Positions 1,203-57,176 of a DNA stretch of 64,000 nt are shown here, in pieces (within the stretch, counting starts at the first letter, position 1; each line of letters starts with the position of its first letter). Source of the DNA: Devosia sp. ZB163 (lineage in GTDB: Bacteria; Pseudomonadota; Alphaproteobacteria; Rhizobiales; Devosiaceae); contig NZ_JAQRMY010000001.1 in the NCBI RefSeq assembly GCF_028613635.1, positions 291,778-355,777 on the forward strand, read 5' to 3'. The position numbers were made by a program, and so were the translations under genes. Below the pieces are notes generated by a model. That model saw only the letters and a program-made list of their open reading frames with translations. It made no database searches and was not told the DNA's origin.

Positions 1203-1218
1203 CGCTTCACGTGAATCA
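1203..1218. other. parS-like site A (13/16)
   Basis: The sequence CGCTTCACGTGAATCA matches the parS consensus TGTTTCACGTGAAACA at 13 of 16 positions with an intact CACGTG core. It contains GAATC, a GANTC methylation motif, directly after the core. It sits between the MFS stop and its terminator hairpin, far from parB, so it could be a weak outlying ParB site. Confidence 0.4.
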
Positions 1219-1253
1219 TCGGGCGCCGGAAACCCCTCCGGCGCCCGATTCTT
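1219..1253 (+). terminator. intrinsic terminator of the MFS gene
   Basis: A perfect 11-bp stem (TCGGGCGCCGG at 1219-1229 pairing with 1238-1248), an 8-base loop and a T-rich tail (ttctttt) form a classical rho-independent terminator just after the MFS gene. Confidence 0.8.
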
Positions 1254-1395
1254 TTCCGACCGCCTGTCGAAACAGGCCCGATCGCCGCGATAGCAGGACG
1301 CTCTATATGGTCGCCAACGAACGGGCCGGAACGGTAGATGTCACCCGCCCGACCGGGCGCATCTATTAAGCCCGGGTATCGGTTCCCCACGCTGG

Positions 1396-2001
1396 CTATC
1401 CGTGAGCCAGCCGCTCAAACGCACTTGGTCGCGGTGGATCGGTCAGCGCTGCCGCGATCCGCCCGGCGCACTCTTCCGGCGTCATCGCGCTGGTATCGAG
1501 CTCGAGGTCGTAGATGCCGGGCTGGTGCACCGCCTCCTGCCAGCGCGCCACCGGCTCGGGCACGCCTTCACCCGCAGCGTAAAAGCCGCCCTGCGGATTG
1601 GCATTGCGCCGCGCCATGATCACCTCGATCGGGCACCGCACGCCGACGAAGAGCACGTCGAGCCCGCTGAGTCGCTGCGCCGCGGCCTCGAGGATACCGA
1701 GCGGTCGCGAATACCAGTCATGATGGCCGACATCGACGACCACGTCGAATCCGGCTCGCGCCCGGGATGCTATGTCGTCATAGAGTTCGGAGTAGAGCCG
1801 GATCACCTCTGGCTCGAGGTCCGGGCGCTCGCCGCCCGGCCTGAGGCCGATGCCCGGCCGAAGCGCCTCCGGCAACCCGGCCGCCATGGTGTCGACGCCA
1901 AGATTCACCCAGGTCCCGGGAATGTCGGCGACGATTGCGCGGGCAATTGAACTTTTGCCCGCGCGGGGGACGCCGTTGAGGATGACGATGCGACCGTTCA
2001 T
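1396..2001 (-). CDS. chloramphenicol phosphotransferase-like P-loop kinase
   Basis: This 201-residue protein starts with a phosphate-binding loop (GVPRAGKSS, residues 10-18). Its overall pattern fits the CPT family (PF07931), whose founder phosphorylates chloramphenicol in its own producer. Family-like segments are VDTMAAGLP after strand 2, VVVDVGHHDW in the middle and the VRCPIEVIMARRNAN region, which lies where the lid and second nucleotide-contact helix are expected. Most chromosomal CPT-like proteins have unknown substrates, so a resistance role is not implied. It is transcribed alone from the minus strand, behind the ppa terminator. Confidence 0.75.
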   Translation of the reverse strand: MNGRIVILNGVPRAGKSSIARAIVADIPGTWVNLGVDTMAAGLPEALRPGIGLRPGGERPDLEPEVIRLYSELYDDIASRARAGFDVVVDVGHHDWYSRPLGILEAAAQRLSGLDVLFVGVRCPIEVIMARRNANPQGGFYAAGEGVPEPVARWQEAVHQPGIYDLELDTSAMTPEECAGRIAAALTDPPRPSAFERLAHG

Positions 2002-2016
2002 GCGCCACCACTAGCC

Positions 2017-2058
2017 GGAAAAAAGAAAGGCGCTCAACCCTTTCGGGGAGCGCCTTTC
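2017..2058 (-). terminator. intrinsic terminator downstream of ppa
   Basis: On the minus strand an 11-bp perfect stem (2025-2035 with 2048-2058) encloses a 12-base loop and is followed by a run of six T. It lies about 105 bases after the ppa stop codon. Confidence 0.8.
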
Positions 2059-2162
2059 CGTTGGGTCGGGACCTGGCTGCCGGGAGGGAACAGCGCCCGA
2101 TCGACCAACCGTTGATCGCTATATGCGATCGGGTCGGTCGAGTTTCAAGGGCGCCCCGGCGA

Positions 2163-2696: not shown

Positions 2697-2804
2697 GGAA
2701 GGTGCCTTGAGGGGAGAAGTTCGGGGCGCTTTTGGCCCATCAGGGGCCATGATTGCAAGGCATGGGTACGCGGGGAGCCCATGCAGTATCAGGGAGAATG
2801 TGCC

Positions 2805-3371: not shown

Positions 3372-3410
3372 GCCCGCACCGGCACCTACTCGGGATGCTG
3401 CTGCCATCGC

Positions 3411-3475: not shown

Positions 3476-3490
3476 CCGCGTCAGTACGCC

Positions 3491-3811: not shown

Positions 3812-3813
3812 CT

Positions 3814-29491: not shown

Positions 29492-29878
29492 ATGCGCCAA
29501 CTCGTCAGTTCCGGCTCCTACCTCGAGCCCGTCATCGGCTTCTCGCGGGCCGTCCGTGTCGGCAACATCGTTGTCGTCGGGGGCACCGCGCCGATCAAGG
29601 CGGGCGGCGGGACAGCGGCGGTCGGTGATGCCTACGGGCAGACGAAACGCTGTCTCGAGATCGTCTCCAAGGCGCTGGCGGATGCCGGCGCCCGGATCGA
29701 GGACGTGACCCGTACCCGCATCATCCTGACCGACATCGCCTTGTGGCAGGAGGCCGCCCGTGCCCATGCCGAGGTCTTCGGCGTCATCCGCCCGGTGACG
29801 ACGCTGATGCAGGTGACGGCCTTCGTCGATCCCGACTGGCTGGTCGAGATCGAGGCCGAGGCCGTCGTCGCCGAGTGA
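29492..29878 (+). CDS. RidA/YjgF family protein
   Basis: A 128-residue RidA-superfamily protein. It contains GFSRAVRVGNIVVVGGTAPI, the DAYGQTKRCLEIVSKALADAGARIEDVTRTRIILTDIALW core and the final PVTTLMQVTAFVDPDWLVEIEAEAV. The family's archetype hydrolyses reactive enamine/imine intermediates from PLP enzymes. An arginine in the VTRTRIIL segment sits where the usual catalytic arginine region is. It starts eight bases after the xth stop, with GAGGA before the ATG, and should be co-transcribed with xth. Its stop codon lies inside parS-like site B. Confidence 0.88.
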   Translation: MRQLVSSGSYLEPVIGFSRAVRVGNIVVVGGTAPIKAGGGTAAVGDAYGQTKRCLEIVSKALADAGARIEDVTRTRIILTDIALWQEAARAHAEVFGVIRPVTTLMQVTAFVDPDWLVEIEAEAVVAE

Positions 29879-29891
29879 TTCACGTGGAACG
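29876..29891. other. parS-like site B (13/16)
   Basis: TGATTCACGTGGAACG matches parS at 13 of 16 positions. GATTC, a GANTC motif, overlaps the core. The TGA is the stop codon of the RidA gene. Confidence 0.4.
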
Positions 29892-35478: not shown

Positions 35479-36497
35479 TGGTTGCGCTCAAGGCGCACGA
35501 AGTCGGCCGCTTCGTCGATCGCCCTGACCTCGAGGCCGGCATCATCCTCGCCTACGGCCCGGACGCCGGTCTGGTTCGCGAAACCGGGCAGCGGCTTGCC
35601 CGCCGCTTCGCCGGCAACGACGCCGACAGCATGAATCTCGTGGTGCTGGACGGTGGCGAGCTCGATTCCGACCCGTCGCGCCTCGCGGTCGAGGCCAAGA
35701 CGACCTCGCTGTTCGGCGATCGCCGGGTGATCCGTGTCCGCAGCGCCGGCAAGTCGCTGGTCATGCCGCTGACCGAACTGCGCGACGATCCGGGCGCGAT
35801 GATCATCCTCGAGGCCGGCAACCTGACGCCGAAGGACCCGCTGCGGGCGCTGGTCGAGGCCGCAAAGCTCGGCCGCGCCCTGCCCTGTTATCCCGATACC
35901 GACGAATCGCTGACCCGCCTGATTGCCGAGACATTCAACAAGGCTGGCATCCGGGCCGACCAGGACGCCGTCGCGGCGCTTCGAGATTCGCTCGGCAACG
36001 ATCGCGAGATCACGCGCCGCGAGCTTGAAAAGCTCCTGCTCTATGCGGCCGAAACGAAGGTGCTGACGCGCGACGACGTCCTGACGCTCTGCGCCGACAA
36101 TGCCGCGCTCGTCCTCGACCAGGTGATCGACGCCACGGCCAGCGGACATGCCGTCCAGCTCGACACGGCGCTCGAACGCGCTATCGCCCAGAGCGTGAAT
36201 GCCCAGCAGATTCTCGCCTCGGCGTTGAACCACTTCGCGACCCTGCGCCGCTGGCGCGCGGAAGCCGATTCCGGCCGGTCCGCGTCCGCCGTGCTCGACA
36301 ATGCCCGGCCCAAGCCGCACTTCTCGCGGCGCGCCTCGCTCGAGCGGCAGTTGCGGCTCTGGACGGACGATGCGCTGTCGGCCGCACTGGAGCGGCTGCA
36401 GCTGGCCGTGGGCGACAGTCGCAAGCGCTACGGCCTGCAGGACGTCGTCAGCCGACGGGCGCTGCTGGCTATTTGTGCAATGGCTGCAGAGCGTTAG
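35478..36497 (+). CDS. holA: DNA polymerase III delta subunit
   Basis: A 339-residue HolA, the clamp-loader subunit that opens the beta ring. It shows the degenerate AAA+ start (AGIILAYGPDAGLVRETGQRLARRF), VVLDGGELDSDPSRLAVEAKTTSLFGDRRVIRVR, EREITRREL-type (NDREITRRELEKLLLY) and the C-terminal collar helices with LNHFATLRRWR. Delta subunits lack a working Walker A, as here. It is the last gene of leuS-lptE-holA and converges on parB. Confidence 0.92.
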   Translation: MVALKAHEVGRFVDRPDLEAGIILAYGPDAGLVRETGQRLARRFAGNDADSMNLVVLDGGELDSDPSRLAVEAKTTSLFGDRRVIRVRSAGKSLVMPLTELRDDPGAMIILEAGNLTPKDPLRALVEAAKLGRALPCYPDTDESLTRLIAETFNKAGIRADQDAVAALRDSLGNDREITRRELEKLLLYAAETKVLTRDDVLTLCADNAALVLDQVIDATASGHAVQLDTALERAIAQSVNAQQILASALNHFATLRRWRAEADSGRSASAVLDNARPKPHFSRRASLERQLRLWTDDALSAALERLQLAVGDSRKRYGLQDVVSRRALLAICAMAAER

Positions 36498-36502: not shown

Positions 36503-36518
36503 TGTTTCACGTGGATCA
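36503..36518. other. parS-like site C (14/16)
   Basis: TGTTTCACGTGGATCA, five bases after the holA stop in the holA/parB gap, matches parS at 14 of 16 positions. It has no GANTC motif. Confidence 0.65.
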
Positions 36519-36716: not shown

Positions 36717-36732
36717 AGTTGCACGTGAAACA
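36717..36732. other. parS-like site D (14/16)
   Basis: AGTTGCACGTGAAACA lies 22 bases after the parB stop codon and keeps a perfect right half of parS (14 of 16 overall). There is no GANTC motif. Confidence 0.6.
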
Positions 36733-36753: not shown

Positions 36754-37617
36754 TCAGCCGGTCAGCTTCATGCAGATGCCGTCGAGCTGCTCGAGCGTGC
36801 GGTAGCGGATCTCGAGGCGGCCGCCCTGGTCCTTGTGGTCGATGGCGACGTGGAGACCCAGGACGTCCGACAGGCGCTTCTCGAGCGCGGCCGTATCGGC
36901 ATCCTTCTCGACCGGCACCGGCTTCTTCTTGGGCGCGTTGAGCTCGCGCTGCGTCATGGCCTCGGCCTCTCGGACCGAAAGCCCGCCGCCGACGATGCGC
37001 TTGGCCAAGGCGGCCGGATCGTCGGCCGTGATCAGCGTGCGGGCATGGCCGGCAGTGAGCTCGCCGCGGCTGACCATGCTGCGCACGTCATCCGGGAGCT
37101 TGAGCAGGCGCAGCGTGTTGGCGACGTGCGAGCGGCTCTTGCCGATCACCTGGGCGAGATCGTTCTGCGTGTAATCGAACTGCTCGATCAGCTGGCCGTA
37201 ACCCATTGCTTCTTCCAGAGGATTGAGGTCGACGCGCTGGACGTTCTCGATGATGGCGAGTTCGAGCGCTTCCTTGTCGTCGACTTCGCGGATCAGCACC
37301 GGCACGTCATTGAGGCCGGCGCGCTGCGATGCCCGCCAGCGGCGCTCGCCGGCGATGATCTCGAACTGGTTGGGATCGTTGGTCGGGCGCACCAGCAGGG
37401 GCTGCATGACGCCCTTCTCGCGCACCGAGTTCGTCAGTTCCTCGAGCTGCTCGGGATCGAACTCGCGCCGGGGGTTGGCGCGGTTGGCAATGAGGAACGC
37501 GACGGGCAGGCGGCGCGTGGTGCCGTTCTCGGCCAGCCGAGCCGCGCCTTCCATGGTAGCCATGTCGCCGATAAGCGCCGCGAGACCGCGACCGAGCCGG
37601 GAGGGTTTGTCGTTCAT
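36754..37617 (-). CDS. parB: chromosome-partitioning protein ParB
   Basis: A 287-residue ParB CTPase clamp. In order: a short N-terminal ParA-binding tail (RLGRGLAALIGD), the CTP-binding domain with NPRREFDPEQLEELTNSVREKGVMQPLLVRP and the GERRWRAS motif (about residue 92), the parS-reading helix-turn-helix (YTQNDLAQVIGKSRSHVANTLRLLKLP, LTAGHARTLI) and a C-terminal dimerisation domain. It loads at parS and recruits ParA and SMC. The gene follows parA by 10 bases. Multiple parS-like sites surround it. Confidence 0.97.
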   Translation of the reverse strand: MNDKPSRLGRGLAALIGDMATMEGAARLAENGTTRRLPVAFLIANRANPRREFDPEQLEELTNSVREKGVMQPLLVRPTNDPNQFEIIAGERRWRASQRAGLNDVPVLIREVDDKEALELAIIENVQRVDLNPLEEAMGYGQLIEQFDYTQNDLAQVIGKSRSHVANTLRLLKLPDDVRSMVSRGELTAGHARTLITADDPAALAKRIVGGGLSVREAEAMTQRELNAPKKKPVPVEKDADTAALEKRLSDVLGLHVAIDHKDQGGRLEIRYRTLEQLDGICMKLTG

Positions 37618-37627: not shown

Positions 37628-38428
37628 TCATGCGGCCGCGAGCTGACGCTCGCGCCGGATCACCTCGGTAGCCAGGCGGAGATAGGCCTGGCTGCCGGCG
37701 CACTTGAGATCGTAGAGCAGGGCCGGCTTGCCGTAGGACGGCGCCTCGGATAGCCGGACATTGCGCGGTATCACCGTGTCGTAGACGAGATTGCCCATCT
37801 CGGAGCGAACGTCGGCCAGCACCTGCTCGCTGAGATTGTTGCGCCGATCGAACATGGTCATCACCACGCCCTGGATCGACAGGCGCGGGTTGAGCGTCGT
37901 GCGGATCTGCTCGATGGTCTGAAGCAGCTGGCTCATGCCTTCGAGCGCGAAGAACTCGCACTGCAGCGGCACCAGCACCGCATCGGCGGCCACAAGCGCG
38001 TTGATCGTCAACAGGTTGAGCGAGGGCGGGCAATCGATCAGGATATAACTGACCGGCTGGCCGTTAATCGAGAGCTCGCTGATCTGCTTGAACGCGTCAC
38101 GCAGCCGGAAGGCGCGATCGGCCTGCTGCGCGATGCTCAGCTCGACGCCGAGCAGGTCGAGCGTCGAGGGGACGACCGCCACGTTGGGCACGCTAGTCAT
38201 GACCGCAGCTTCGGCGACGCGCGCGTCGCCCATGAGGAGATCATAACTCGATACGTCACGACCGATGCGGGAGATGCCCAGCCCGGTTGAGGCATTACCC
38301 TGGGGATCGAGGTCCACAATCAGCACGCGCTCACCGATGGCGGCCAGCGCAGTTGCCAGATTGATGGCGGTAGTGGTCTTGCCGACCCCACCCTTCTGGT
38401 TTGCCAGGGTCAGGATTCGAGGAGCCAA
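37628..38428 (-). CDS. parA: chromosome-partitioning ATPase ParA
   Basis: A 266-residue deviant Walker ATPase. The P loop is NQKGGVGKTTTAINLATALA (residues about 9-28), with LIVDLDPQGNASTGLG (Walker A') and YILIDCPPSLNLLTINAL (Walker B). It forms a nucleoid-bound gradient that pulls ParB-parS complexes apart. The short N-terminus, without an HTH, marks the chromosomal (type Ib-like) form. It lies between rsmG and parB in the universal rsmG-parA-parB order. Confidence 0.97.
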   Translation of the reverse strand: MAPRILTLANQKGGVGKTTTAINLATALAAIGERVLIVDLDPQGNASTGLGISRIGRDVSSYDLLMGDARVAEAAVMTSVPNVAVVPSTLDLLGVELSIAQQADRAFRLRDAFKQISELSINGQPVSYILIDCPPSLNLLTINALVAADAVLVPLQCEFFALEGMSQLLQTIEQIRTTLNPRLSIQGVVMTMFDRRNNLSEQVLADVRSEMGNLVYDTVIPRNVRLSEAPSYGKPALLYDLKCAGSQAYLRLATEVIRRERQLAAA

Positions 38429-38456: not shown

Positions 38457-39110
38457 CTAACTGTTTTTTCGTCGTAAATTGCTGACCTGCAGCAATGCGC
38501 CGGCCGCTTCGGTGGCGCTACGATTTATTAACACGTCGAAGTCCCAGGCCAAACGGCTTTCTTCGACTTCCCGGGCGTAATCCCGGCCCTTGTGCAGAAT
38601 GGCCCGCGTTTCCGGGCCAAAGAAGGGGTGGATAAGTCCGAACAGGCCGGGAAGCGCGGCGAGAGCGCGGGAAGTGATGACGTCGAACCCGGCGCGAGTG
38701 CCGTCCGGCGCTGTTTCACGTGAGTCAAACGAGTCGCTGCGCCCACCATGTACGGCCGCATTGAGGCCGAGCTCACGGATCGCCTGGCGCAGGAAGGCGA
38801 CCTTCTTGCTGATCGGCTCAACCAGCTGGTAGTGCGCGGGCCCGCCCTTCAGGGCGATCGCCAGCGGCAGGGCCGGCAGGCCGCCTCCCGATCCGACGTC
38901 GAGGAAGCGCGTATCCCCGGGTCGAAGGAGCGGCAGGACCTGCAGGGAATCGAGGATGTGCCGATCCCACAGATTCGCTTCTGTTTCACGTGAAACAAGA
39001 TTCTGTACCGCGTTCCACTTCCTCAGCAGAACGGAAAACGATTCTAGGTCGCGGCGTACATCGCCGATGGGACGGGCGAAATACCCGGCATACGGGAGAA
39101 GGTCGTCCAT
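38457..39110 (-). CDS. rsmG: 16S rRNA (guanine-N7) methyltransferase RsmG
   Basis: A 217-residue RsmG (GidB) that methylates G527 of 16S rRNA. The SAM-binding motif FLDVGSGGGLPALPLAIAL lies near residue 72. The N-terminal WNAVQNLVSRETEANLWDRHILDS segment contains VSRET, whose codons spell the perfect parS site at 38982-38997. A second parS-like site encodes DSRET. The ATG overlaps the mnmG stop (TGATG); a TTG one codon earlier is possible. The gene precedes parA by 28 bases. Confidence 0.95.
   Translation of the reverse strand: MDDLLPYAGYFARPIGDVRRDLESFSVLLRKWNAVQNLVSRETEANLWDRHILDSLQVLPLLRPGDTRFLDVGSGGGLPALPLAIALKGGPAHYQLVEPISKKVAFLRQAIRELGLNAAVHGGRSDSFDSRETAPDGTRAGFDVITSRALAALPGLFGLIHPFFGPETRAILHKGRDYAREVEESRLAWDFDVLINRSATEAAGALLQVSNLRRKNS
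38712..38727. other. parS-like site E (14/16), within rsmG
   Basis: TGTTTCACGTGAGTCA lies in rsmG and encodes DSRETA on the minus strand. It matches parS at 14 of 16 positions. GAGTC, a GANTC motif, is fused to the core. Confidence 0.65.
38982..38997. other. perfect parS site (F), within rsmG
   Basis: TGTTTCACGTGAAACA is an exact 16-of-16 parS palindrome inside rsmG, reading V-S-R-E-T on the coding strand. It is the strongest ParB-loading site seen here and lies about 1.4 kb from parB. Confidence 0.95.
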
Positions 39111-40972
39111 CAACCTGCCCGGCGCAGGCTGCCGCGGCGGATCACCGACAGAATAAGAGTGATGGCGGCTGGTGTTACGCCGTCGATGGCCTGAGCCTGG
39201 GCGATGGTTGCAGGCTTCCTATCAGCCAGCTTCTGCCTGATCTCCATCGAGAGCCCGGGCATGGCGGCATAATCGAGCCACTCCGGAATGTCGCGGCCCT
39301 CGTCGCGCTTCATGGCGGCGATATCGGCCTGCTGGCGCTGCAGATAGACGGCGTACTGGGCGTCCACCGAAAGCTGCTCCATGACGGAGGCTGGGATCTC
39401 GGCCAGCTCCGGCCAGAGCGGCAGGACCTGCTCCACGGTCATGTCCGGGTAGGAGAGGAGATCGAATGCGCTGCGCTGCTGGCCATCGGCATTCACCTGT
39501 AGCCCGGCCTTGCGCGCTGTCGTTGGCGAAACCGTCAACGATGTCAGCAGCTTGCGGCCGGCGGTCAGTGCGGCGCTCTTCTGCGCGAAGCGCTCGCGTC
39601 GCTCCTCCCCGACCAGTCCAACCGCAACTGCCTGCGGCGTGAGCCGCTGATCGGCATTGTCGCTGCGCAGGTGCAGGCGGAACTCGGCGCGCGAAGTGAA
39701 CATCCGATAGGGCTCTGAGACGCCACGCGTGACGAGATCATCGACCATGACGCCGAGATAGCTCTCGGTGCGCGACAGGCGCAGCGCCTCGGCGCCCTTG
39801 ACGGCGAGGCCCGCATTGGCGCCGGCATAGATCCCCTGAGCGCCGGCTTCTTCATAACCGGTAGTGCCGTTGATCTGGCCGGCGAGGTAAAGGCCGGGCA
39901 GGCGGCGGAGCTCCAGCGTTGGCTTCAGCTCGCGCGGATCGACATAGTCGTACTCGATGGCGTAGCCCGGCCGGATGATGCGGACGTTCTCGAGCCCCGG
40001 CATCGACTTCAGGAACTGCTCCTGGACGTCGGCGGGCAGCGAAGTGGAGAGCCCGTTGGGATAGATCGTCGGATCGTCGAGGCCCTCGGGCTCGAGGAAG
40101 ATCTGGTGGCTGTCGCGGTCGGCGAAGCGGACGATCTTGTCCTCGATCGACGGGCAGTAGCGCGGCCCGCGGCTCTTGATGCGGCCCGAATACATGGCCG
40201 AGCGATGGATGTTCTCCGCGATGATGCGGTGCGTGTCGACCGTCGTGCGGGTGATGAAGCAGCTGACCTGCGGGGTGGTGATGGCGGCGGTCAGCGCCGA
40301 GAAGGGCTCGGGCGGATCGTCGCCAAGCTGCTCCTCGAGGCCGGAGAAGTCGATGGAGGTGGCGTCCAGGCGGGCCGGGGTGCCGGTCTTCAGCCGCCCG
40401 AGGGTCAGGCCCAGGGCCTCGAGGCGGGTGGAAAGGCCGAGCACGGGCTTCTCGCCCACGCGGCCGGCCGGGACTGTCTCTTCACCGCGATGGATCAGGC
40501 CGCGGAGAAACGTGCCGGTGGTGAGGACCACGGCATTGGCGCCGAACCGGCGGCCATCGAGCAGCACGGCGCCGGCGATACGCCCGTTCTCGACGACCAG
40601 ATCATCGACCTCCCCTTCGATGACGGTAAGGTTGGGTTGCGACGTGATCGCCGCCTGCATCGCCGCCTTGTAGAGCTTGCGGTCGGCCTGGGCGCGGGGG
40701 CCGCGGACGGCTGGGCCCTTTCGGCGGTTGAGGACGCGGAACTGAATGCCGGCGGCGTCGGCGACACGGCCCATCAGGCCATCCATGGCGTCGATCTCGC
40801 GCACGAGATGACCCTTGCCGAGCCCGCCGATAGCCGGGTTGCAGCTCATTTCGCCGATGGTCGCGAACTTGTGGGTGATCAGCGCGGTGGGAACGCCAAG
40901 GCGCGCCGAAGCAGCCGCAGCCTCGCAGCCGGCGTGTCCGCCACCTACAACAATGACGCCGAAGTCGGTCAT
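39110..40972 (-). CDS. mnmG: tRNA uridine-5-carboxymethylaminomethyl modification enzyme MnmG
   Basis: A 620-residue FAD protein (GidA) that with MnmE modifies wobble U34 of certain tRNAs. The dinucleotide fold is [23 protein letters not shown] at residues about 4-26. Other conserved parts are [37 protein letters not shown] with the catalytic-type Cys, [14 protein letters not shown] and [18 protein letters not shown]. The start is the ATG giving MTDFGVIVV, preceded by AAGGA. It overlaps rsmG by one base and lies 84 bases after mnmE, in a gap with two parS-like sites. Confidence 0.96.
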
Positions 40973-41006
40973 GGCATGTTCCTTGTAGAGCGGCGGTCTA
41001 CGGCAA

Positions 41007-41022
41007 TGTTCCACGTGAATCA
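41007..41022. other. parS-like site G (14/16)
   Basis: TGTTCCACGTGAATCA in the mnmE-mnmG gap matches parS at 14 of 16 positions. GAATC adjoins the core. Confidence 0.65.
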
Positions 41023-41043
41023 ACCTTGCAGCCGCGGCCACCC

Positions 41044-41059
41044 GGTTTCACGTGAATCA
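41044..41059. other. parS-like site H (14/16)
   Basis: GGTTTCACGTGAATCA overlaps the mnmE stop codon and is only 37 bases from site G. It matches parS at 14 of 16 positions and carries GAATC. Confidence 0.65.
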
Positions 41060-42382
41060 CTTCCCGATGCAGAAGGCGCTGAACAGCCGGTCTAGAACCG
41101 ATTCGGCATCCATCCGGCCCAGCAGCCGCTCAAGCGCGGCAGACGCGTGGCGGAGGTCCTCGGCTGCCAGCTCCGGGTCTTCGAGGTGCTCGGTCACCTC
41201 GGCCAGGGCCGCGACGGCGGACTGAAGCGCGACACGGTCCCGCTCATGGCTGACGAGGAGGTCGGAGGCACGGACTGTGCCGGCACCAGACACCTCGTAG
41301 AGCCGCTGCAGCAAGGCCTCGATGCCGGCACCGGTGCTGACGGAGACAGACAGGTCCGCTCCCGGCATATCACCAAGGTCGCTCTTCGTGCCAACGATCG
41401 CGACCGGCGGCTGCCGCCAGGGTTCTGCCGCCAGTTCGGGGAAGGCTGGCGGTGGTGCCGTCGTGACATCCGGCGCCTGCAGCCATAGCACATGGTCTGC
41501 GCCGAGCATGGCCTCGCGGGCGCGTTCGACGCCGATCGCCTCGGCCTTCGACGTCGTGTCGCGGAGGCCGGCGCTGTCGATCAGGATGATGAGCTGGCCT
41601 TTGACGTCGAGCGGGATCTCCTTGAGGTCCCGGGTAGTGCCGGGTTCGTCGGAGACGATAGCGGCTTCTGACCGGGACAGGGCGTTGAGGAGGCTCGATT
41701 TGCCGGCATTTGGGGGGCCTGCCAGCACGACACGGAAACCGCTGCGGAGGATGCGGCCCTGTCCTCGGGTGGCGAGAACGTCTGCTATGTCGCTGCCAAG
41801 AGCTGTGACCTCGCTCGCGAACGAGTCTGGCAACGCGCCGACATCGCCTTCATCGGAGAAGTCGAGCTGGGCTTCGATCTCGGCGCGGAGGTCGAGCAGT
41901 CGCTCGCGCCAGCCCTCGACCTGCCGGGTGAGGCCTCCCTCGAGCCGCGCATAGGCGAGGGCACGCTGGTTCTCGGTTTCGGCCTCGATGAGATCGCCGA
42001 GACCCTGGGCTTCGACCAGATCGAGCTTGCCATTCTCGAAGGCGCGTCGGGTGAACTCGCCGGCTTCGGCGAGGCGGATCCCTGGGCGGGCAGAGAGCCT
42101 CCGCAACAGGGCGCGGACGACGGCCGGGGAACCGTGGACCTGCAGTTCGGCGCAGTCTTCGCCCGTGAAACTCGCCGGCCCCGGCATCCACGCGACGAGG
42201 CCGCGGTCGATGCGGTCGCCATCGAGGGTGATATCGCTGAGGGTGAGCTTGCGGGGGGTCGGGAGCTGGCCGAGGAGTTCCGCGACGATCATGCCGGCTG
42301 CCGGGCCGGACAGCCGAATGATGGCGACGCCGGAGGGAACGGCCCCTGACGACAGGGCGACGATCGTGTCGGTGTCAGGCAT
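41057..42382 (-). CDS. mnmE: tRNA modification GTPase MnmE
   Basis: A 441-residue MnmE (TrmE), partner of MnmG. The N-terminal folate-binding domain opens with TIVALSSGAVPSGVAIIRLSG. The helical domain contains FTRRAFENGKLDLVEAQGLGDLI. The G domain has G1 GPPNAGKSSLLNAL, the G2/G3 region DEPGTTRD and IDSAGLRDT, and G4 GTKSD. The chain ends in the invariant FCIGK with the functional Cys. The ATG giving MPDTDTIVAL is chosen because it starts the conserved domain; longer readings run into intergenic repeat DNA. Confidence 0.96.
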   Translation of the reverse strand: MPDTDTIVALSSGAVPSGVAIIRLSGPAAGMIVAELLGQLPTPRKLTLSDITLDGDRIDRGLVAWMPGPASFTGEDCAELQVHGSPAVVRALLRRLSARPGIRLAEAGEFTRRAFENGKLDLVEAQGLGDLIEAETENQRALAYARLEGGLTRQVEGWRERLLDLRAEIEAQLDFSDEGDVGALPDSFASEVTALGSDIADVLATRGQGRILRSGFRVVLAGPPNAGKSSLLNALSRSEAAIVSDEPGTTRDLKEIPLDVKGQLIILIDSAGLRDTTSKAEAIGVERAREAMLGADHVLWLQAPDVTTAPPPAFPELAAEPWRQPPVAIVGTKSDLGDMPGADLSVSVSTGAGIEALLQRLYEVSGAGTVRASDLLVSHERDRVALQSAVAALAEVTEHLEDPELAAEDLRHASAALERLLGRMDAESVLDRLFSAFCIGK

Positions 42383-42412
42383 GGCATACCGCCCACGATG
42401 TGGGGGAGGCAG

Positions 42413-42440
42413 GATGGATCCCGGCTTGCACCGGGATGAC
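42413..42440. repeat. R1 hairpin repeat, copy 4
   Basis: A ggatcccgg-cttgca-ccgggatgac unit between mnmE and rho matches the R1 family seen at 23.2 kb and 44.0 kb. The arms are CCCGG and CCGGG. Confidence 0.65.
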
Positions 42441-42487
42441 ATCGAGGGTGGTCGAACCGGTGGTGGGCATTTTCACGCCCGGCCGGA

Positions 42488-43753
42488 TCAGGTGTTCATC
42501 GAGTCGAAGAAGTCGGAATTCGTCTTGGTCTGACGGATCTTGTCCATCAGGAACTCCATGGCGTCGACCGTGCCCATCGGGTTGAGGATACGGCGGAGGA
42601 CATACATCTTGCGCAGGATGTCGGGCTCGACCAGCAGCTCTTCCTTGCGGGTGCCGGACTTGGTGACGTCCATGGCCGGGAAGATGCGCTTGTCGGAGAC
42701 CTTGCGGTCGAGGACGATTTCCGAGTTACCGGTGCCCTTGAACTCTTCGAAGATCACTTCGTCCATGCGCGAGCCGGTATCGATCAGCGCGGTCGAGATG
42801 ATGGTGAGCGAACCGCCATCCTCGATATTGCGCGCGGCGCCGAAGAAGCGCTTGGGGCGCTGCAGGGCGTTCGCGTCGACACCACCGGTCAGCACCTTGC
42901 CCGAGCTCGGCACCACCGTGTTGTAGGCGCGGCCGAGGCGGGTGATCGAATCGAGGAGGATCACCACGTCGCGCTTGTGCTCGACGAGGCGCTTGGCCTT
43001 CTCGATCACCATTTCGGCGACCTGGACGTGGCGCGAGGCCGGCTCGTCGAAGGTCGAGGAGATCACCTCGCCCTTCACTGAGCGCTGCATGTCGGTGACT
43101 TCCTCGGGCCGCTCGTCGATGAGCAGCACGATGAGGTAGCACTCGGGGTGATTGACCGCGATCGACTGTGCAATATTCTGCAACAGTACGGTTTTACCGG
43201 TACGCGGCGGCGCAACGATCAGCGCGCGCTGACCCTTGCCGAGAGGCGCCACCAGGTCCATGACCCGGGCGCTCTTGTCCTTGACCGTGGGGTCGGGCAA
43301 CTCGAGACGCAGGCGCTCATCGGGATAGAGCGGCGTCAGGTTGTCGAAGTTGACCTTGTGGCGGACCTTCTCGGGGTCCTCGAAATTGATGGTGTTGACC
43401 TTGAGGAGGGCGAAGTAGCGCTCGCCTTCCTTGGGAGAACGGATCTGGCCTTCGATCGTATCGCCGGTGCGAAGCGAGAAGCGGCGGATCTGGCTGGGGG
43501 AGACGTAGATGTCGTCGGGGCCGGGCAGGTAGTTCGCGTCCGGGGAGCGGAGGAACCCGAAGCCGTCGGGCAGGACTTCCACCACGCCTTCGCCGGTGAT
43601 GTCCACTTCGCGCGCCGCCAGTTCCTTGAGGATGGCGAACATCAGTTCCTGCTTGCGCAGCGTCGAGGCGCTCTCGACGTCATAGGTCTCGGCGAACTCG
43701 AGCAGTTCGGCAGGCGTCTTGGCCTTGAGTTCGCTGAGCTTGATACTTTCCAT
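42488..43753 (-). CDS. rho: transcription termination factor Rho
   Basis: A 421-residue hexameric RNA helicase, the standard length. The N-terminal RNA-binding domain has [32 protein letters not shown]. The motor has P loop [28 protein letters not shown] (Walker B), the Q-loop region [15 protein letters not shown] and the R-loop region [21 protein letters not shown]. The ATG giving [12 protein letters not shown] fits the conserved start. A gap of about 300 bases with a parS-like site and an R1 repeat lies upstream. Confidence 0.97.
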
Positions 43754-43895
43754 TGCGCGTACGGACCCTTGGGGATGCGAAGTGACAGAGATGTCAGGAA
43801 GGGGAAGAGGGTGCCCGGAAAGCGCCGGGGAGGCGCCCATCGATCAGGCGGTGCCATGAGATAGCTAAAACTACGGTTACATTCAAGAGCGGAAC

Positions 43896-43911
43896 GGATT
43901 CACGTGGAACA
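43896..43911. other. parS-like site I (13/16)
   Basis: GGATTCACGTGGAACA matches parS at 13 of 16 positions and carries GATTC. The identical 16-mer recurs at 57161-57176. Confidence 0.5.
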
Positions 43912-43984
43912 GTTCGGTCGTGGCGGGGTGAAAACCGGCACCCGCGGATGCAGGTATCGAAGGCACCGCCAGTGCTGGCGGCGA

Positions 43985-44012
43985 GATGGTCCCCTGCTTT
44001 CGCAGGGGTGAC
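43985..44012. repeat. R1 hairpin repeat, copy 5
   Basis: A ggtcccctgctttcgcagggg unit followed by tgac, with perfect 7-bp arms CCCCTGC/GCAGGGG (43991-44008), matches the R1 family. Confidence 0.65.
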
Positions 44013-44057
44013 ACCGAGCAGGAGGGAAGGCCCGCCAACGGGCCCACCTCATTGGTC

Positions 44058-44483
44058 TCAGAACGGCTTCACCACCACCGAGATCACGATGATGATGGCG
44101 ACGACGAACGGGATCTCGTTGATCGCCCGGAAGAACTTCGAGCTCCTGGTGTTCCGGTCGTTGGCGAAATCCCTGAGGATCCGGCCGTACCAGCCGTGGA
44201 TGCCGCTGAGGACGATGACCATCAGCGCCTTCACCCACATCCAGCCCTGGCTGAAATCGACGATGCCGAAGCCGAAGGCGAGCCACAGGCCGAAGATCCA
44301 GCTCGCGATCATCGCCGGCGTCGTGATGCCGCGATAGAGCCGGCGCTCCATGACCTTGAACGTCTCGGACTGCACCGAGCCCTTCTCGGCATCGGCGTGG
44401 TAGACGAAGAGGCGCGGCAGGTAGAGCATCCCCGCCATCCAGGCGATGATGCTCAGGATGTGCAGCGCCTTGACCCATTCCAT
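44058..44483 (-). CDS. hemJ: protoporphyrinogen oxidase HemJ
   Basis: A 141-residue four-helix membrane protein of the HemJ family, which oxidises protoporphyrinogen IX in bacteria lacking HemG and HemY. Conserved parts are the start WVKALHILSIIAWMAGMLYLPRLFVYH, with the functional His, and MERRLYRGITTPAMIASWIFG, followed by WMWVKALMVIVLSGIHGWYGR and a C-terminal helix. The ATG lies two bases after the hemE stop, so the two heme-pathway genes are coupled. Confidence 0.93.
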   Translation of the reverse strand: MEWVKALHILSIIAWMAGMLYLPRLFVYHADAEKGSVQSETFKVMERRLYRGITTPAMIASWIFGLWLAFGFGIVDFSQGWMWVKALMVIVLSGIHGWYGRILRDFANDRNTRSSKFFRAINEIPFVVAIIIVISVVVKPF

Positions 44484-44485: not shown

Positions 44486-45523
44486 TCAGTAAGCTCCCCG
44501 CGCCACCGCGATCAGCCGCTCGACATGCGCGATCGGCGTTTCGGGCACGATGCCGTGCCCGAGGTTGAAGATATGGGGCCGGTCCCGGAATGCGGCAACG
44601 ATCTCGCGGACCCGGACGTCCATCTGCTCGCCGCCAGCGAGGAGCCGTAGCGGATCGAGATTGCCCTGGACGCCGAGGCCGGCCGGCAGCTCACGGGCAA
44701 AGCCGAGCGGCGTCCCGTAGTCGAGGCCGAGGAGGTTCACGCCCGTCTGCCGCGCATAGGCCGGCAGGTTCCCGGCGGCACCACGCGGGAAACCGATCAC
44801 CGGGGCGTCCGGGATTTCTCTCCGCAGCCCTTCGACGATCCGGCGGTTGGGTTCGATCACCCAGTCGCGGAACGCCACTTCGTCGAGATTGAGGGCCCAG
44901 CTCTCGAACAGCTGCACCACATCGGCGCCAGCCCGGAACTGCGCGGCGAGATAATCAATGCTCGCCTCGATGAGAATGTCGATGAGACGCGCGAATGCCT
45001 CGGGCTGCGTCAGGGCGAACACCCGCGCCGCTGCCTGGTCGGAGGAGCCGCGCCCGCCGATCATGTAGGTGGCAACCGTCCAGGGCGAACCGCAAAACCC
45101 GATCAGGGTCTTTTCCGAACTGAGACCCGCACGAACCCGGCGAACGGTCTCGATGACCGGGCTGAGCTTCTCCAAAGCCCTCTTCGGATCGAGCCGCCCG
45201 ATGCTATCGGGGGTCACGGGCTCGAGTCGGGGACCTTCACCCACCTCGAAGCGCACGGATTGTCCGAGCGCATCGGGAATGACCAGGATGTCCGAAAACA
45301 GGATCGCAGCATCGAGATCGAAGCGCCGGAGCGGCTGGAGGGTCACCTCCGAAGCCAGTTCCGGATTGTAGCAGAGATCGAGGAAGCTTCCCGCCCTGGC
45401 GCGAAGCTCGCGATACTCGGGCAGGTAGCGACCGGCCTGGCGCATGATCCAGATCGGCAGCCGCTCCTGGCGCCGACCGAGCACTGTCTCGAGCAGGGGT
45501 TTGGTCACCGGCGTAGCGGTCAT
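44486..45523 (-). CDS. hemE: uroporphyrinogen decarboxylase
   Basis: A 345-residue HemE that converts uroporphyrinogen III to coproporphyrinogen III. Signature segments are PIWIMRQAGRYLPEYRELR (active-site loop), DAAILFSDILVIPDALG with the catalytic Asp, GFCGSPWTVATYMIGG and FNLGHGIVPETP. The ATG giving MTATPVTKP is used; a TTG four codons upstream is the alternative. The gene points away from the candidate origin, the same neighbourhood as Caulobacter Cori, which lies beside hemE. Confidence 0.96.
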   Translation of the reverse strand: MTATPVTKPLLETVLGRRQERLPIWIMRQAGRYLPEYRELRARAGSFLDLCYNPELASEVTLQPLRRFDLDAAILFSDILVIPDALGQSVRFEVGEGPRLEPVTPDSIGRLDPKRALEKLSPVIETVRRVRAGLSSEKTLIGFCGSPWTVATYMIGGRGSSDQAAARVFALTQPEAFARLIDILIEASIDYLAAQFRAGADVVQLFESWALNLDEVAFRDWVIEPNRRIVEGLRREIPDAPVIGFPRGAAGNLPAYARQTGVNLLGLDYGTPLGFARELPAGLGVQGNLDPLRLLAGGEQMDVRVREIVAAFRDRPHIFNLGHGIVPETPIAHVERLIAVARGAY

Positions 45524-45706
45524 GCCCCCACCCAATCCAAGAAAGATTCTAGATTCTTCATCTTTATTATCATGGCGGTGTTTTGCAGGAATTCACGACT
45601 GCCCACAACGCAATAGGCGGCGACAGAAGCGCACGGGCCGTGGTGTCCCGGAGGCTGTGAATCCGCGACGGGTGGAAGGCCGGGACGACAGCCGGAGTCG
45701 GCTGGA

Positions 45707-45949: not shown

Positions 45950-46546
45950 ATGCTGATCCTTGCCTCCCAGAGCCAGGCGCGAAAGGCCCTGCTTGCGGGC
46001 ACCGGGCTCCGATTCGAAACGAGTCCAGCGCAAATCGACGAGCGTAGGCTCGAAGCCGAAGTGCTGGGGAAAGGCGGCGATGCCGCCGCGGTAGCCATGC
46101 GGCTGGCGGAAGCCAAAGCCTTGACCGTCGCGCAGAATCGGCCGGGCGATGTCGTCATCGGCGCCGACCAGGTCCTCGCCTCGGAGGGTGAGTTGTTCCA
46201 CAAGCCCGGAACGATCGCGGAGGCGGCCGAACAGCTCGACCGGCTGCGTGGACGAACCCACGCCCTCCATTCCGGGCTCGCGCTGGCCCGGGGCGAGGTG
46301 ATCCTGTGGTCGGGGACGGTGACGGCCCGGCTGACCATGCGGGCGTTCGAGCCGACCGAGCGCGACGCCGTCCTGGCGCTCGAGGGTGAGGACGTGCTGG
46401 GATCGGTCGGCGGATACCGGCTCGAGGGGCCGGCGATCCGGCTGTTCGAAGCCATCTAGGGCGACTATTTCACCATCCTCGGCCTGCCGCTCTTGCCTTT
46501 GCTGGCCGCGTTGCGGCTCCATGCCCCCGACGTTTTCGAGAAATGA
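45950..46546 (+). pseudogene. maf: maf nucleotide pyrophosphatase interrupted by in-frame TAG
   Basis: Maf/YhdE-type house-cleaning pyrophosphatase. The start LILASQSQARKALL, DVVIGADQVLASEG and the KPGTIAEAAEQLDRLRGRTHALHSGLAL block are normal. At 46457-46459 a TAG follows SVGGYRLEGPAIRLFEAI. Beyond it the same frame continues GDYFTILGLPLLPLL and 13 more residues to a TGA that overlaps the aroE ATG, exactly as an intact gene would. The missing residue would be Glu (GAG to TAG) in the conserved E-G-D-Y-F motif. The 169-residue product lacks the last 29 positions. Sequencing error, real nonsense mutation or readthrough remain open. Confidence 0.85.
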
Positions 46547-47376
46547 TTCACGTGAAAAAAGCCTTCGTCATCGGCCACCCGATCAAGCACTCGCGCTCTC
46601 CGCTCATCCACGGCACCTGGCTGGCGGCGCACGGCATTGCCGGCAGCTATGAGGCGATCGACGTGGCGCCGGCGGAGCTGACGCAGTTCGTCGAGCGCAT
46701 CCGCGCGGGCGAGTTCGCCGGCGGCAACGTGACGATCCCCCACAAGGAGGCCGTGTTCGGTCTCGCCGACAGCGTCGATCCGCTGGCGCGGACCATCGGG
46801 GCGGTGAACACCCTGGTCCGTGAGGGCGACGGCCGCATCCACGGCTTCAATACCGACTACATGGGCTTTCTCGGCAATCTCGACCAGAACGCACCGGGCT
46901 GGAGCAATGGGCTGGAGCGCGCCATCGTGCTCGGGGCCGGCGGCGCTTCGCGCGCTATCCTCGTCGCGTTGCGCGAGAGGGGGATCAAGGAGGTCGTCCT
47001 TCTCAACCGCACCGTCGACAAGGCCGGGGCACTGGCCCGGGAGATCGCCGGACCGTTCATTCCGGGCCCACTCGCCGACTACGCCCGCTACGCGCCGACG
47101 GCCGGCCTCGTCGTCAACACCACCTCGATCGGCATGCACGACAGCCGCTTCGAGGATCTCGATCTGTCGCTGCTGCCCCGGACGGCGCTCGTCACCGACA
47201 TCGTCTATGTGCCGCTGGTCACTCCGCTCCTCGCCGATGCGCGGGCGCTTGGCTTGAAGACGGTCGACGGGCTGGGCATGCTGCTCCATCAGGCCGTGCC
47301 CGGTTTCGAAGCCTGGTTCGGCGTCAGGCCGGCAGTGACGCCCGAGCTCAGGGCGAAGGTAGAGGCGACGTTGTGA
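46543..47376 (+). CDS. aroE: shikimate dehydrogenase
   Basis: A 277-residue NADPH-dependent enzyme of the shikimate pathway. The substrate lobe has VIGHPIKHSRSPLIHGTWLAAHGI and GGNVTIPHKEAVF with the catalytic Lys; NTDYMGFL follows with the catalytic Asp. The NADP lobe has IVLGAGGASRAILVAL and LNRTVDKA, then VVNTTSIGM. The first codons M-I-H-V-K-K lie inside parS-like site J. The ATG overlaps the ancestral maf stop, so its translation was probably coupled to maf. The stop overlaps the coaE GTG (GTGA). Confidence 0.95.
   Translation: MIHVKKAFVIGHPIKHSRSPLIHGTWLAAHGIAGSYEAIDVAPAELTQFVERIRAGEFAGGNVTIPHKEAVFGLADSVDPLARTIGAVNTLVREGDGRIHGFNTDYMGFLGNLDQNAPGWSNGLERAIVLGAGGASRAILVALRERGIKEVVLLNRTVDKAGALAREIAGPFIPGPLADYARYAPTAGLVVNTTSIGMHDSRFEDLDLSLLPRTALVTDIVYVPLVTPLLADARALGLKTVDGLGMLLHQAVPGFEAWFGVRPAVTPELRAKVEATL
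46544..46559. other. parS-like site J (14/16)
   Basis: TGATTCACGTGAAAAA spans the ancestral maf stop and the first codons of aroE. It carries GATTC and is about 0.6-1 kb from the candidate origin. Confidence 0.6.
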
Positions 47377-55167: not shown

Positions 55168-55189
55168 GACGCGAACCGCAAGACAGGGC

Positions 55190-55215
55190 GAGGGGCGCCA
55201 CAGCGGGCACCCCTC
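55190..55215. terminator. shared hairpin between convergent genes
   Basis: GAGGGG (55190-55195) pairs with CCCCTC (55210-55215), with an inner GCC/GGC extension, between the outer-membrane protein gene and the BA14K gene. T runs are weak on both sides. Confidence 0.4.
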
Positions 55216-55224
55216 ATCTTCGTC

Positions 55225-55623
55225 CTAGAGGTTGCACCGGTGGTACTGACCATCATAGCCGAGGAACATGTCGGTCTGGGCATTGTAGGACCGATACTTG
55301 GCTTCGCAGGCCGCCACATGGTTGTCGTCGATCACGACCATGTTGTTGTTGTAGTAGCGGTCATTCGCGATGGCGGCGCCCACACCGAGCCCGACCGCGC
55401 CGGCCCCTATCCCCCAGCCGTAGGGACGGTAGCCCCAGCGGTTCATGTATCGGTTGCCGTTCCAGTAGTTGTTGTATCGCCGGTTGTTCCAGCCTCCATC
55501 CCAACGATTGCCCATCCCGGGACTGTAACCGTACCCGAGGCGTCCTTGCGCCTGGGCCGGCATCGAGGTTGCCATCAGTCCCAAAACTGCGGCCGCGACG
55601 GCTGCAAGAGCGAGCTTTCGCAT
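55225..55623 (-). CDS. BA14K-family exported protein
   Basis: A 132-residue exported protein. The signal peptide is MRKLALAAVAAAVLGLMATSMPAQA. The middle is rich in Gly, Tyr, Asn, Arg and Trp (NRWDGGWNNRRYNNYWNGNR) and a glycine-rich helix follows (GIGAGAVGLGVGAAIA). The C-terminus, HVAACEAKYRSYNAQTDMFLG plus the final YDGQYHRCNL, is the BA14K domain (PF07886), found mainly in Rhizobiales, where the Brucella 14-kDa protein is immunoreactive and has lectin-like properties. The start ATG is preceded by GGGAGAAGG. Confidence 0.88.
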   Translation of the reverse strand: MRKLALAAVAAAVLGLMATSMPAQAQGRLGYGYSPGMGNRWDGGWNNRRYNNYWNGNRYMNRWGYRPYGWGIGAGAVGLGVGAAIANDRYYNNNMVVIDDNHVAACEAKYRSYNAQTDMFLGYDGQYHRCNL

Positions 55624-56096
55624 CGCCTTCTCCCTTCCAAGTGAAGTGAGGCACAACGGAAATCCTCCACCCGCGTCATGGTTGCGCGCAGCACACCTGC
55701 GGGCACCGTCGCAGTCGAGGATATCCCTCGAACATGCGGGGCTCGGCCGCCAGCCACGACAGTTAACTCCCGCGGCGCATTCTCATCAAACTGGATGCGT
55801 ACAGGACCGAGCTGGAAGAGGGGGGGAGTGCGTGGGCTATCTGCTTGATAGCCTTGGGATCGGTCCGCGAGTTTCCTGGAATGTCACGGGAGGAATCTCT
55901 CACGGGCGACCCTGCAGAGTTGACGTGAATAGACCGATCGAGGGTCCGGATTTGTTAAATGTCGGGACCGATTGCCTGTGTACCGCCCCGGGACATCAGC
56001 CGTAGCTTGGTTCGACCTGGCGGCGTTTTGGCGACGCAGGCTGGGCCGTTTCCAGGAGCCGGAGGCAAGACGTTCAACCTTATCCAGGAGGACAGA
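55624..56096. other. divergent gap between BA14K and DUF2092 genes
   Basis: A 473-base region without a convincing gene. It contains a perfect stem GGCTATC-tgctt-GATAGCC (55835-55853). Both flanking genes start from it, so it must hold two promoters; I could not place them with confidence. Confidence 0.5.
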
Positions 56097-56900
56097 TTGT
56101 CAGCAAAGTTCACGTTGAAAGTGACCTCCAGAACGGTCGCCATTGCCGGAATTGCCGCGTTGGCCGGACTGGCCGGCGCCATACCGTCGCAAGCCGACGA
56201 GGCTGATGCCAAGACGCTGCTCAAGCAGATGTCGGACTACCTGGCGGCCCAGAAGGCATTCTCGTTTGACTACGACAGCGACCTGGAGGTCGTGACCAAG
56301 GATCAGCAGAAGCTTGCGTTGGCGAGCTCGGGCAACATGGCCGTCGAGCGGCCGGACAAGCTGCGGGCCGAACGCGTTGGCGGCTTCACCGATGTCGAAG
56401 TCGTCTATGACGGGAAAACGCTCTCGATCCTGGGCGACCAGAAGAGCGCCTACAGCCAGGCGGAACTGCCCGGGACCCTCGACCAGCTATTCGACACCCT
56501 GCGCGACAAGTACGGCCGCCCGATCTCTGGAGCCGATCTGCTCTTGTCCGACGTCTACGATGCGCTGATGCCGGAGGTGAAGGATGTGAAGGACCTGGGG
56601 AGCGGCGTCATCGGCGGTGTCGAGTGCAATCATCTCGCGTTTCGAACGGACGAGGTCGATTGGCAGATCTGGATAGCCACCGGAGCCGATCCCTATCCAT
56701 GCCGCTATGTCGTCACCAGCAAGGAGGTGCCGGGCTCTCCGGAGTACCGGGTCGACCTGAGAAACTGGAAGGCGGGCGACAAGGTGGCGCAGGCCGATTT
56801 CGGGTTCCAGCCGCCTGCCAACGCCAAGAAGGTCGAAATGTCCGATCTCCCGGAGACGGATGAGCTACCGAAATCGTTCGCGGTCGGAGGCACGAAATGA
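56097..56900 (+). CDS. DUF2092 exported protein
   Basis: A 267-residue predicted periplasmic protein of the DUF2092 family. The TTG start is chosen because a perfect AGGAGG lies five bases upstream; it gives a signal region VAIAGIAALAGLAGAIPSQADEADA. The mature part, with MSDYLAAQKAFSFDYDSDLEVV, KLALASSGNMAVERPDKLRAER, VVYDGKTLSILGDQKSAYSQAE and CNHLAFRTDEVDWQIWIATG, has the half-barrel pattern shared with LolA/LolB-like lipid binders, so it may handle lipids. Its stop overlaps the next gene's ATG. Confidence 0.8.
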   Translation: MSAKFTLKVTSRTVAIAGIAALAGLAGAIPSQADEADAKTLLKQMSDYLAAQKAFSFDYDSDLEVVTKDQQKLALASSGNMAVERPDKLRAERVGGFTDVEVVYDGKTLSILGDQKSAYSQAELPGTLDQLFDTLRDKYGRPISGADLLLSDVYDALMPEVKDVKDLGSGVIGGVECNHLAFRTDEVDWQIWIATGADPYPCRYVVTSKEVPGSPEYRVDLRNWKAGDKVAQADFGFQPPANAKKVEMSDLPETDELPKSFAVGGTK

Positions 56901-57109
56901 CACTCAGTCGAAAGCTCGGAATAGCAGTACTGGCCACGGTGATTGGCATTTGCGGCCTCGAGATCGGAGTGAGCATTGGTGTACCGGGCGTGCCCGGGGT
57001 CGTGTCGGAGGCCTATGCCAAGGTGGGGCGGCCGCTGACACCGGTCAGCGCTGCCGGGGCGGCCCGGCGTACGGCCCGTCGGTGCGCGACAGGCGTCTAC
57101 GCCTGCTAG
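56897..57109 (+). CDS. small exported Arg-rich protein coupled to DUF2092
   Basis: A 70-residue protein. The N-terminal 40 residues form a signal peptide or anchor (LGIAVLATVIGICGLEIGVSIGV... SEAYAKVG). The short mature tail is basic, GAARRTARRCATGVYAC, with two cysteines. It starts by ATGA overlap with the DUF2092 gene, strongly suggesting a functional pair. I know of no characterised function. Confidence 0.7.
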   Translation: MTLSRKLGIAVLATVIGICGLEIGVSIGVPGVPGVVSEAYAKVGRPLTPVSAAGAARRTARRCATGVYAC

Positions 57110-57160
57110 CCCTCATCGCTCCCTGAACCCCGTACCTCCGGCGGCCTGTTGCTGTCTCAA

Positions 57161-57176
57161 GGATTCACGTGGAACA
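57161..57176. other. parS-like site K (13/16)
   Basis: GGATTCACGTGGAACA, identical to site I, lies in the convergent gap before the aminotransferase. It carries GATTC. Confidence 0.45.

Follow-up and report, generated by a model that had tools for sequence, protein, structure and literature searches.

The stretch of DNA analyzed here (hereafter the window; 64,000 nucleotides with 66% guanine plus cytosine, GC, at C1:291778-355777 in a 10-contig genome of 4.59 Mb) covers the ParABS region of a Devosia-like alphaproteobacterium whose genome encodes the GANTC methyltransferase CcrM. Between 36.7 and 47.4 kb it harbors parB, a parA-like gene, gidB, gidA, trmE, rho, hemE, and aroE, and it also carries eleven sites resembling parS, the chromosomal centromere sequence bound by ParB, most of which have the CcrM site GANTC in one half of the palindrome. 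This composite is real and conserved, and can best be regarded as a lineage-specific parS variant in which a CcrM site is laid over one half. By ParB, the closest named relatives were Devosia, with Pelagibacterium and Arsenicitalea more distant (26 loci, 66-91% identity).

All eleven parS-like sites listed in the original prediction were found where it had placed them, with 0-3 mismatches to the consensus TGTTTCACGTGAAACA (shuffle mean 0.06, 0 of 100 shuffles reaching 11). Its claim of GANTC at eight of them was likewise confirmed, with CACGTGANTC at 8/11 sites (shuffle mean 0.45, 0/100 reaching 8) and eight of the nine genomic copies of this string located in the window. Genome-wide, 14 positions lay within three mismatches of parS, and among them the CACGTG core was confined to the eleven window sites, all of which fall within 56 kb around parAB. 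The window contains 14 copies of CACGTG in all, and the three that are not parS-like lack an adjoining GANTC. Judged from its sequence, this set of sites is a cluster of chromosomal parS (centromere) sites in a Devosia-like bacterium. Half-sites were written as GTG plus bases 1-5, with the consensus AAACA, and a T-half was defined by T at base 3, so that GATTCACGTGAAAC and TGATTCACGTGAAACA are T-half forms of parS and GATTCACGTGAATC is the double-T form. In nine of the eleven sites, a single half carried T at base 3, which yielded GANTC in eight of them.

All sites are given on the plus strand. GANTC occupied the right half of CGCTTCACGTGAATCA (1203..1218), TGTTCCACGTGAATCA (41007..41022, in the trmE-gidA gap), and GGTTTCACGTGAATCA (41044..41059, the last three bases being the trmE stop codon). 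It occupied the left half of TGATTCACGTGGAACG (29876..29891), TGATTCACGTGAAAAA (46544..46559, overlapping the aroE start codon), and both copies of GGATTCACGTGGAACA, one (43896..43911) at the end of a minus-strand open reading frame (ORF; 43900-44478) and the other (57161..57176) between the ends of a weakly LolA-like ORF on the plus strand and an aminotransferase gene on the minus strand. The eighth, TGTTTCACGTGAGTCA (38712..38727), has G as the N of GANTC and lies inside gidB in the codons D-S-R-E-T. The remaining three sites are TGTTTCACGTGGATCA (36503..36518, right after the end of a holA-like ORF and before the parB end), whose T-half reads GGATC rather than GANTC, AGTTGCACGTGAAACA (36717..36732, between the holA-like ORF and parB), which is without a T-half, and a perfect palindromic parS (38982..38997) inside gidB (V-S-R-E-T) that has no embedded GANTC and is accompanied by a GATTC near each side. 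The two gidB sites share a reading frame (DSRET and VSRET), in which the GANTC form is an Asp codon followed by TCA. Site 1203 lies between the ends of a major facilitator superfamily (MFS) transporter-like gene on the plus strand and an ORF weakly resembling chloramphenicol phosphotransferase on the minus strand, immediately 5' of a GC-rich inverted repeat followed by GATTCTTTT, a terminator-like arrangement (window 1203-1260). The latter ORF (1396-2001) matched NF033114 with 76.7 bits, under the cut-off of 250, and is adjacent to the MFS efflux-type transporter at 5-1195.

The parB gene (36754..37617, minus strand; 287 amino acids, aa; TIGR00180, 190 bits against a cut-off of 58) is expected from its sequence to encode the chromosomal ParB, the predicted binder of the parS-like sites. 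Its residues R162 and G190 were invariant or nearly so, and a numbering offset matches them to R173 and G201 of Caulobacter ParB, which contact parS according to the available text of PMC7383237. The parA-like partition ATPase gene (37628..38428, minus; 266 aa) was assigned from matches to ParA/MinD-type models, which for the listed models did not reach the cut-off, together with its adjacency to parB. Further along the minus strand are gidB/rsmG (38457..39113; PF02527; two of the parS-like sites inside), the gidA/mnmG ORF (39110..41041; PF01134), trmE/mnmE (41057..42442; PF12631 and PF10396), rho (42488..43840; PF07497 and PF07498), the ORF at 43900-44478, which had no Pfam or NCBIfam match, and hemE (44486..45535; PF01208), followed by aroE on the plus strand (46543..47376; PF08501). 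Because the PF01134 match in gidA/mnmG begins only at residue 29, the true start probably lies downstream of the listed GTG. The holA-like ORF spans 35478-36497. The replication origin presumably lies beside hemE, as in the Caulobacter gene order, and was not fixed in the window by the GC-skew minimum (36341) or the single DnaA-box match (45932). Relative to this assumed origin, placed between hemE and aroE, the GANTC half faces the origin at six of the eight sites, the other two being 29876 and 43896.

Distribution of the T-half in related genomes

Three sets of loci were compared. The family set comprised 31 Devosiaceae-like parB loci, namely the window, 26 ParB-matched loci (assigned by ParB identity, some titled only 'Rhizobiales', 'Hyphomicrobiales' or 'Alphaproteobacteria bacterium'), and 4 same-family genomes. 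The rest-of-order set consisted of 57 loci, that is, G058 and 56 of 60 fetched regions (about one per family, chosen from 117 genomes with a ParB match among the 120 order genomes searched; the other 4 were the same-family genomes). The rest-of-class set consisted of 90 loci of other families from 96 genomes searched, leaving out G000 and G058 (in other sets), three genomes without a match, and one with a weak match. Sites were counted when base 3 was A or T with at most three other mismatches, and all locus counts include related genomes.

In the family, 121 of the 177 sites were single-T and 56 were no-T, compared with 39 and 114 of the 153 sites in the rest of the order and 4 and 162 of the 167 sites in the rest of the class. 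The class yielded a single double-T match, TGATGCACGTGCATGA, which was admitted by this loose rule but is not credible as parS. GANTC was made by 118/121 family T-halves and by all 39 rest-of-order T-halves. Under a slightly different rule, loci without sites numbered 0/31, 2/57, and 15/90 in family, order, and class, respectively. In a draw of 299 genomes from the phylum, TGVTTCACGTGAAACA had T in 23 matches and TGC in one within the order (n = 41, own genome included, a few families dominating), and T in one and TGC in two outside it; in a class draw of 337 genomes, the exact T form occurred in 7 genomes, one of them from the order. The enrichment in related genomes that the original prediction called for was therefore found, the composite being conserved in Devosiaceae-like genomes and recurring in the order.

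On a ParB tree of 61 order and 5 class loci (66 rows, 26 of them T-using; a quick tree with few well-supported branches), T-usage was scattered. It required 17 changes; shuffling gave about 20.6 on average, and a count this low was reached in 36-43 of 500 shuffles. The well-supported branches alone force just 3 changes. Moreover, of the T-halves at the trmE-gidA sites of the order, 8 were left halves and 9 were right halves. Because of this scatter and of the use of both halves, the T-half pattern looks like the result of recurrent origin rather than single inheritance, as far as can be judged by comparing sequences.

The same two observations speak against the explanation that the T persists through overlap with coding, stop, or start codons and through inheritance from a small number of ancestral sites. 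Such constraint would fit site 38712 in its Asp-Ser codons, 41044 on the trmE stop, and 46544 on the aroE start, as well as the orthology of many Devosiaceae sites and the GAGTC form of the composite, which falls in gidB codons both in the window and in the N-terminal gidB frame of locus L217. However, intergenic sites show the same pattern, and the GAGTC of loci L218 and L061 stands behind the trmE stop in non-coding DNA. Given the intergenic sites, coding constraint is insufficient as a general cause, and this explanation as a whole is considered quite improbable.

Base variation within the half-site

The original prediction had measured the sites against random GANTC, which it expected about once per 300 bases. 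The window holds 97 GANTC, about one per 660 bp, and this yardstick was rejected as an unfair null, since a single substitution in a consensus half (GTGAAAC to GTGAATC) suffices to create GANTC. The informative feature is instead that the change of A to T at base 3 is seen much more often than other substitutions.

Within a T-half, GANTC demands A at base 1 and leaves base 2, its N, free. With family and order pooled, 152 of the 160 T-halves were otherwise unchanged, 3 were altered at base 1, and 5 at base 2, compared with 444 unchanged, 43 altered at base 1, 1 at base 2, and 12 at base 4 among 500 other halves. Base 1 was thus kept as A in 157/160 T-halves vs 457/500 other halves (change rate, P = 0.002), base 2 was altered in 5/160 vs 1/500 (P = 0.004), and the pattern of change at base 1 vs base 2 differed between the two kinds of halves (P = 1e-4). 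In addition, the pattern TGTTTCACGTGABWC had 29 matches in 397 order genomes, comprising 23 GAGTC (18 genomes) and 6 GAGAC (6 genomes), an excess of GAGTC relative to the T share among comparable halves, which was 17% in the rest of the order (P = 2e-13), 33% in the pooled sets (P = 4e-7), and 57% in the family (P = 0.011). Among genomes with a mapped parB, all seven GAGTC sites lay within 20 kb of it (G000, G157, G158, G179, G190, and two in G195). Part of this variation favors GANTC itself, over an unconstrained T, as the selected unit.

The T was furthermore limited to one half. No double-T parS-like site was detected in the 31 family or 57 rest-of-order loci, and GATTCACGTGAATC was absent from 120 whole order genomes. 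With independent halves, 20.5 double-T sites would be expected in the family (relatedness uncorrected), and 5.3 vs 0 seen in the 21 T-using rest-of-order loci (71 sites, P = 0.0007; a subset picked for T). The T-halves of the family were also more conserved than their partner halves (116/121 vs 95/121, P = 7e-5).

The main alternative to a role for GANTC is that the ParB of this order simply tolerates T as well as A at position 2 in one half-site, GANTC being a by-product and two T-halves binding too weakly. In this case, a lysine or arginine at the equivalent of Caulobacter ParB residue 184 (K173 in the window, placed by offset from the numbering of PMC7383237, with no Caulobacter sequence aligned) may strengthen a backbone contact and permit T. 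The available text of that study describes the equivalent Noc lysines as contacting the phosphates of guanine -5 and thymine 2 and as permissive for new specificity, in agreement with this alternative. K or R was present in 30/31 family ParBs (the other has a gap), 45/57 in the rest of the order, and 3/90 in the class, and T-usage tracks the order rather than CcrM. Within the order, however, the residue was uncoupled from T-usage (a T site in 16/41 loci with K and in 3/6 with N), and the lysine was consequently rejected as the sole cause. Nor does tolerance by ParB predict the freer base 2 of T-halves, the better conservation of family T-halves than of their partners, or the enrichment of GANTC beyond the 16-mer described below. 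ParB tolerance is nevertheless regarded as a serious possibility, although short of a probable one.

GANTC in the flanks of parS

GANTC was also counted up to 22 bp beyond parS, with GANTC inside other parS excluded, the background matched for coding and intergenic DNA, and eight patterns of equal base content compared; in the counts by pattern, zones between neighboring sites were counted twice, whereas the gap-split counts use merged zones. In the rest of the order, flanking GANTC numbered 51 vs 18.7 expected (P = 6e-10), the next pattern being AGNCT with 24 vs 16.2. Of the eight patterns, only GANTC showed clear enrichment in this set and in the class genomes with CcrM. In class loci with CcrM it numbered 23 vs 11.1 expected (P = 0.001; 67 loci, 128 sites), and in those without CcrM 5 vs 4.5 (23 loci, 39 sites), a contrast that is suggestive only. 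CcrM status was based on two sets of genomes, of which 67/74 and 53/68 matched at E <= 1e-50, with the weak matches G009 and G094 counted as CcrM-less. The enrichment in the order peaked in the trmE-gidA gap (33 vs 5.7) and was 17 vs 7.6 elsewhere (P = 0.002).

These flanks bear on another explanation, namely that the GANTC sites are elements of promoters overlapping parS and under GcrA/CcrM control (gidA-gidB-parA-parB, aroE, and others), in which case these sites would serve cell-cycle transcription and not ParB. The concentration in the trmE-gidA gap is in line with this, as are GANTC-N4-GANTC pairs ending two bases before parS in that gap in three loci of different families (L181, L188, and L200), which could possibly represent a CcrM/GcrA-controlled promoter of the gidAB-parAB genes. 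Within the trmE-gidA gaps, however, GANTC was denser close to parS (33 in 2795 bp) than further away (38 in 9791 bp; P = 5e-8), and in the window the genes around sites 1203 and 57161 appear to converge on them. Moreover, the extended motif YGAKTCK, which ends in G or T, was rejected for the embedded sites, where GATTC or GACTC is always followed by the A of the core. YGAKTCK has been described at GcrA-activated genes in Caulobacter, and Brevundimonas as lacking such a preference, in the portions of PMC8725594 and PMC7987155 consulted. Overall, promoter coupling is deemed an improbable cause of the composite.

A possible link between methylation and ParB loading

CcrM was detected in 47/47 order genomes tested, own genome included, with one partial match. 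The own genome encodes a RAMA domain scoring over its cut-off and a 376-aa CcrM-like protein, and the NCBIfam CcrM model gave 629 bits, below its cut-off of 830. The narrowly best-supported reading of the sequence patterns, unproven and held with slightly less than even confidence, is that the CcrM site in parS is under selection and that methylation is coupled to ParB loading. In many parS sites of the order, one half has changed from GTGAAAC to GTGAATC (sometimes GTGAGTC), so that this ParB half-site now also contains a CcrM site and its partner remains consensus-like. Under the methylation reading, selection would retain one CcrM site per parS. This site would become hemimethylated at fork passage and remain so until CcrM acts, and the methylation state of the T-half might alter ParB loading and thereby link the centromere to replication. 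The opposite direction, in which ParB would shield the site from CcrM, is equally plausible, as PMC5172544 reports that extra methylase left GANTC methylation at the Caulobacter parS locus unaltered. One methylatable half beside a fixed half would be expected to yield a graded response.

CcrM targets the adenine at the second position of GANTC. On one strand this adenine corresponds to base 1 of the half-site, and on the opposite strand it is the adenine that pairs with the new T. These positions fall in the part of the major groove contacted by the recognition helix in ParB structures, which makes an effect of methylation on ParB physically plausible. The interpretation given in the original prediction is partly supported: methylation-tuned ParB binding would be plausible, and another factor may instead read the composite motif. 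The stronger proposal of a methylation-switched centromere, in which a CcrM-methylatable half evolved repeatedly across this Rhizobiales-type order and hemimethylation alters ParB loading on the sister copies until CcrM is produced late in the cell cycle, is advanced more tentatively and would be doubtful on present evidence.

Several observations weigh against selection for the CcrM site. Over all order loci, the absence of double-T sites was not significant (P = 0.066), and rest-of-order T-halves were not more conserved than their partners (36/39 vs 38/39). The argument from the N base is weakened because the GAGTC and GAGAC matches are not independent, a recount by family giving GAGTC 6 vs GAGAC 5 (P = 0.005 vs the 17% share, 0.12 vs the 33% share). 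In the 397 order genomes, N was A or G only and never C or T, and therefore ParB or another reader besides CcrM also constrains it; both the purine at N and the weak by-family pattern agree with ParB tolerance. Codon constraint could partly account for the gidB sites. As for the flanks, the CcrM-less control is small, such that a twofold enrichment would give five or fewer with P = 0.10, and the family set says little because CTNAG (28 vs 13.4) and TGNCA (46 vs 24.9) were as enriched there as GANTC (31 vs 17.8). Promoter GANTC sites may also contribute, since the flank enrichment is strongest in the trmE-gidA gap. Furthermore, embedded GANTC outside the order was equally rare with and without CcrM (3/128 vs 1/39 sites), and T-halves were found in the CcrM-less genomes G068 and G421. 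CcrM alone is insufficient to account for the composite, because most CcrM-bearing genomes sampled outside the order keep the plain palindrome.

If selection for the CcrM site is correct, it would join at the DNA level two cell-cycle systems conserved in alphaproteobacteria, namely methylation by CcrM and segregation by ParABS, and could partly account for why CcrM is important in this order. If the cause is instead ParB tolerance, the asymmetry of these parS sites, with one non-consensus half and never two in the examined loci, still bears on how a symmetric ParB dimer reads the centromere.

Comparison with known systems

The strings GATTCACGTGAAAC, GTTTCACGTGAATC, and GTTCCACGTGAATC were not found in the literature text searched, and GANTC inside parS was not described in the main-text portions covered of PMC9040568, PMC11514494, PMC5172544, PMC3973325, and PMC6090056. 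With the chromosomal parS of ParABS systems (TGTTTCACGTGAAACA), the present sites share the CACGTG core, a consensus half, and clustering around parAB and gidAB. They differ in that most Devosiaceae-like sites have one GTGAATC half, whereas those in the rest of the class are mostly near-perfect palindromes. In E. coli, SeqA reads hemimethylated GATC at oriC, which offers a functional analogy of replication-timed hemimethylation near the origin, although the methylase, the reader, and the target differ.

In C. crescentus, GANTC methylation at the chromosomal parS locus has been measured as a control and was unchanged by CcrM stabilization or foreign methylases, with no embedded half-site GANTC described in the available part of that report (PMC5172544). 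For the repABC-Ch2/ori2 region of A. tumefaciens, the accessible text of PMC11514494 places a GANTC, M2, near predicted parS sites and suggests a role in partitioning, similar to the link considered here; that region, however, belongs to a secondary replicon with RepB, and the GANTC is not described there as part of parS. Likewise, the repABC module of Paracoccus plasmid pAMI4 has GANTC sites near an alphaproteobacterial centromere, for which the authors suggest regulation, but according to the text available of PMC9040568 its five GANTC sites are about 500 bp from the parS of the plasmid RepB, whereas in the Devosia-like genome they lie inside the chromosomal parS itself.

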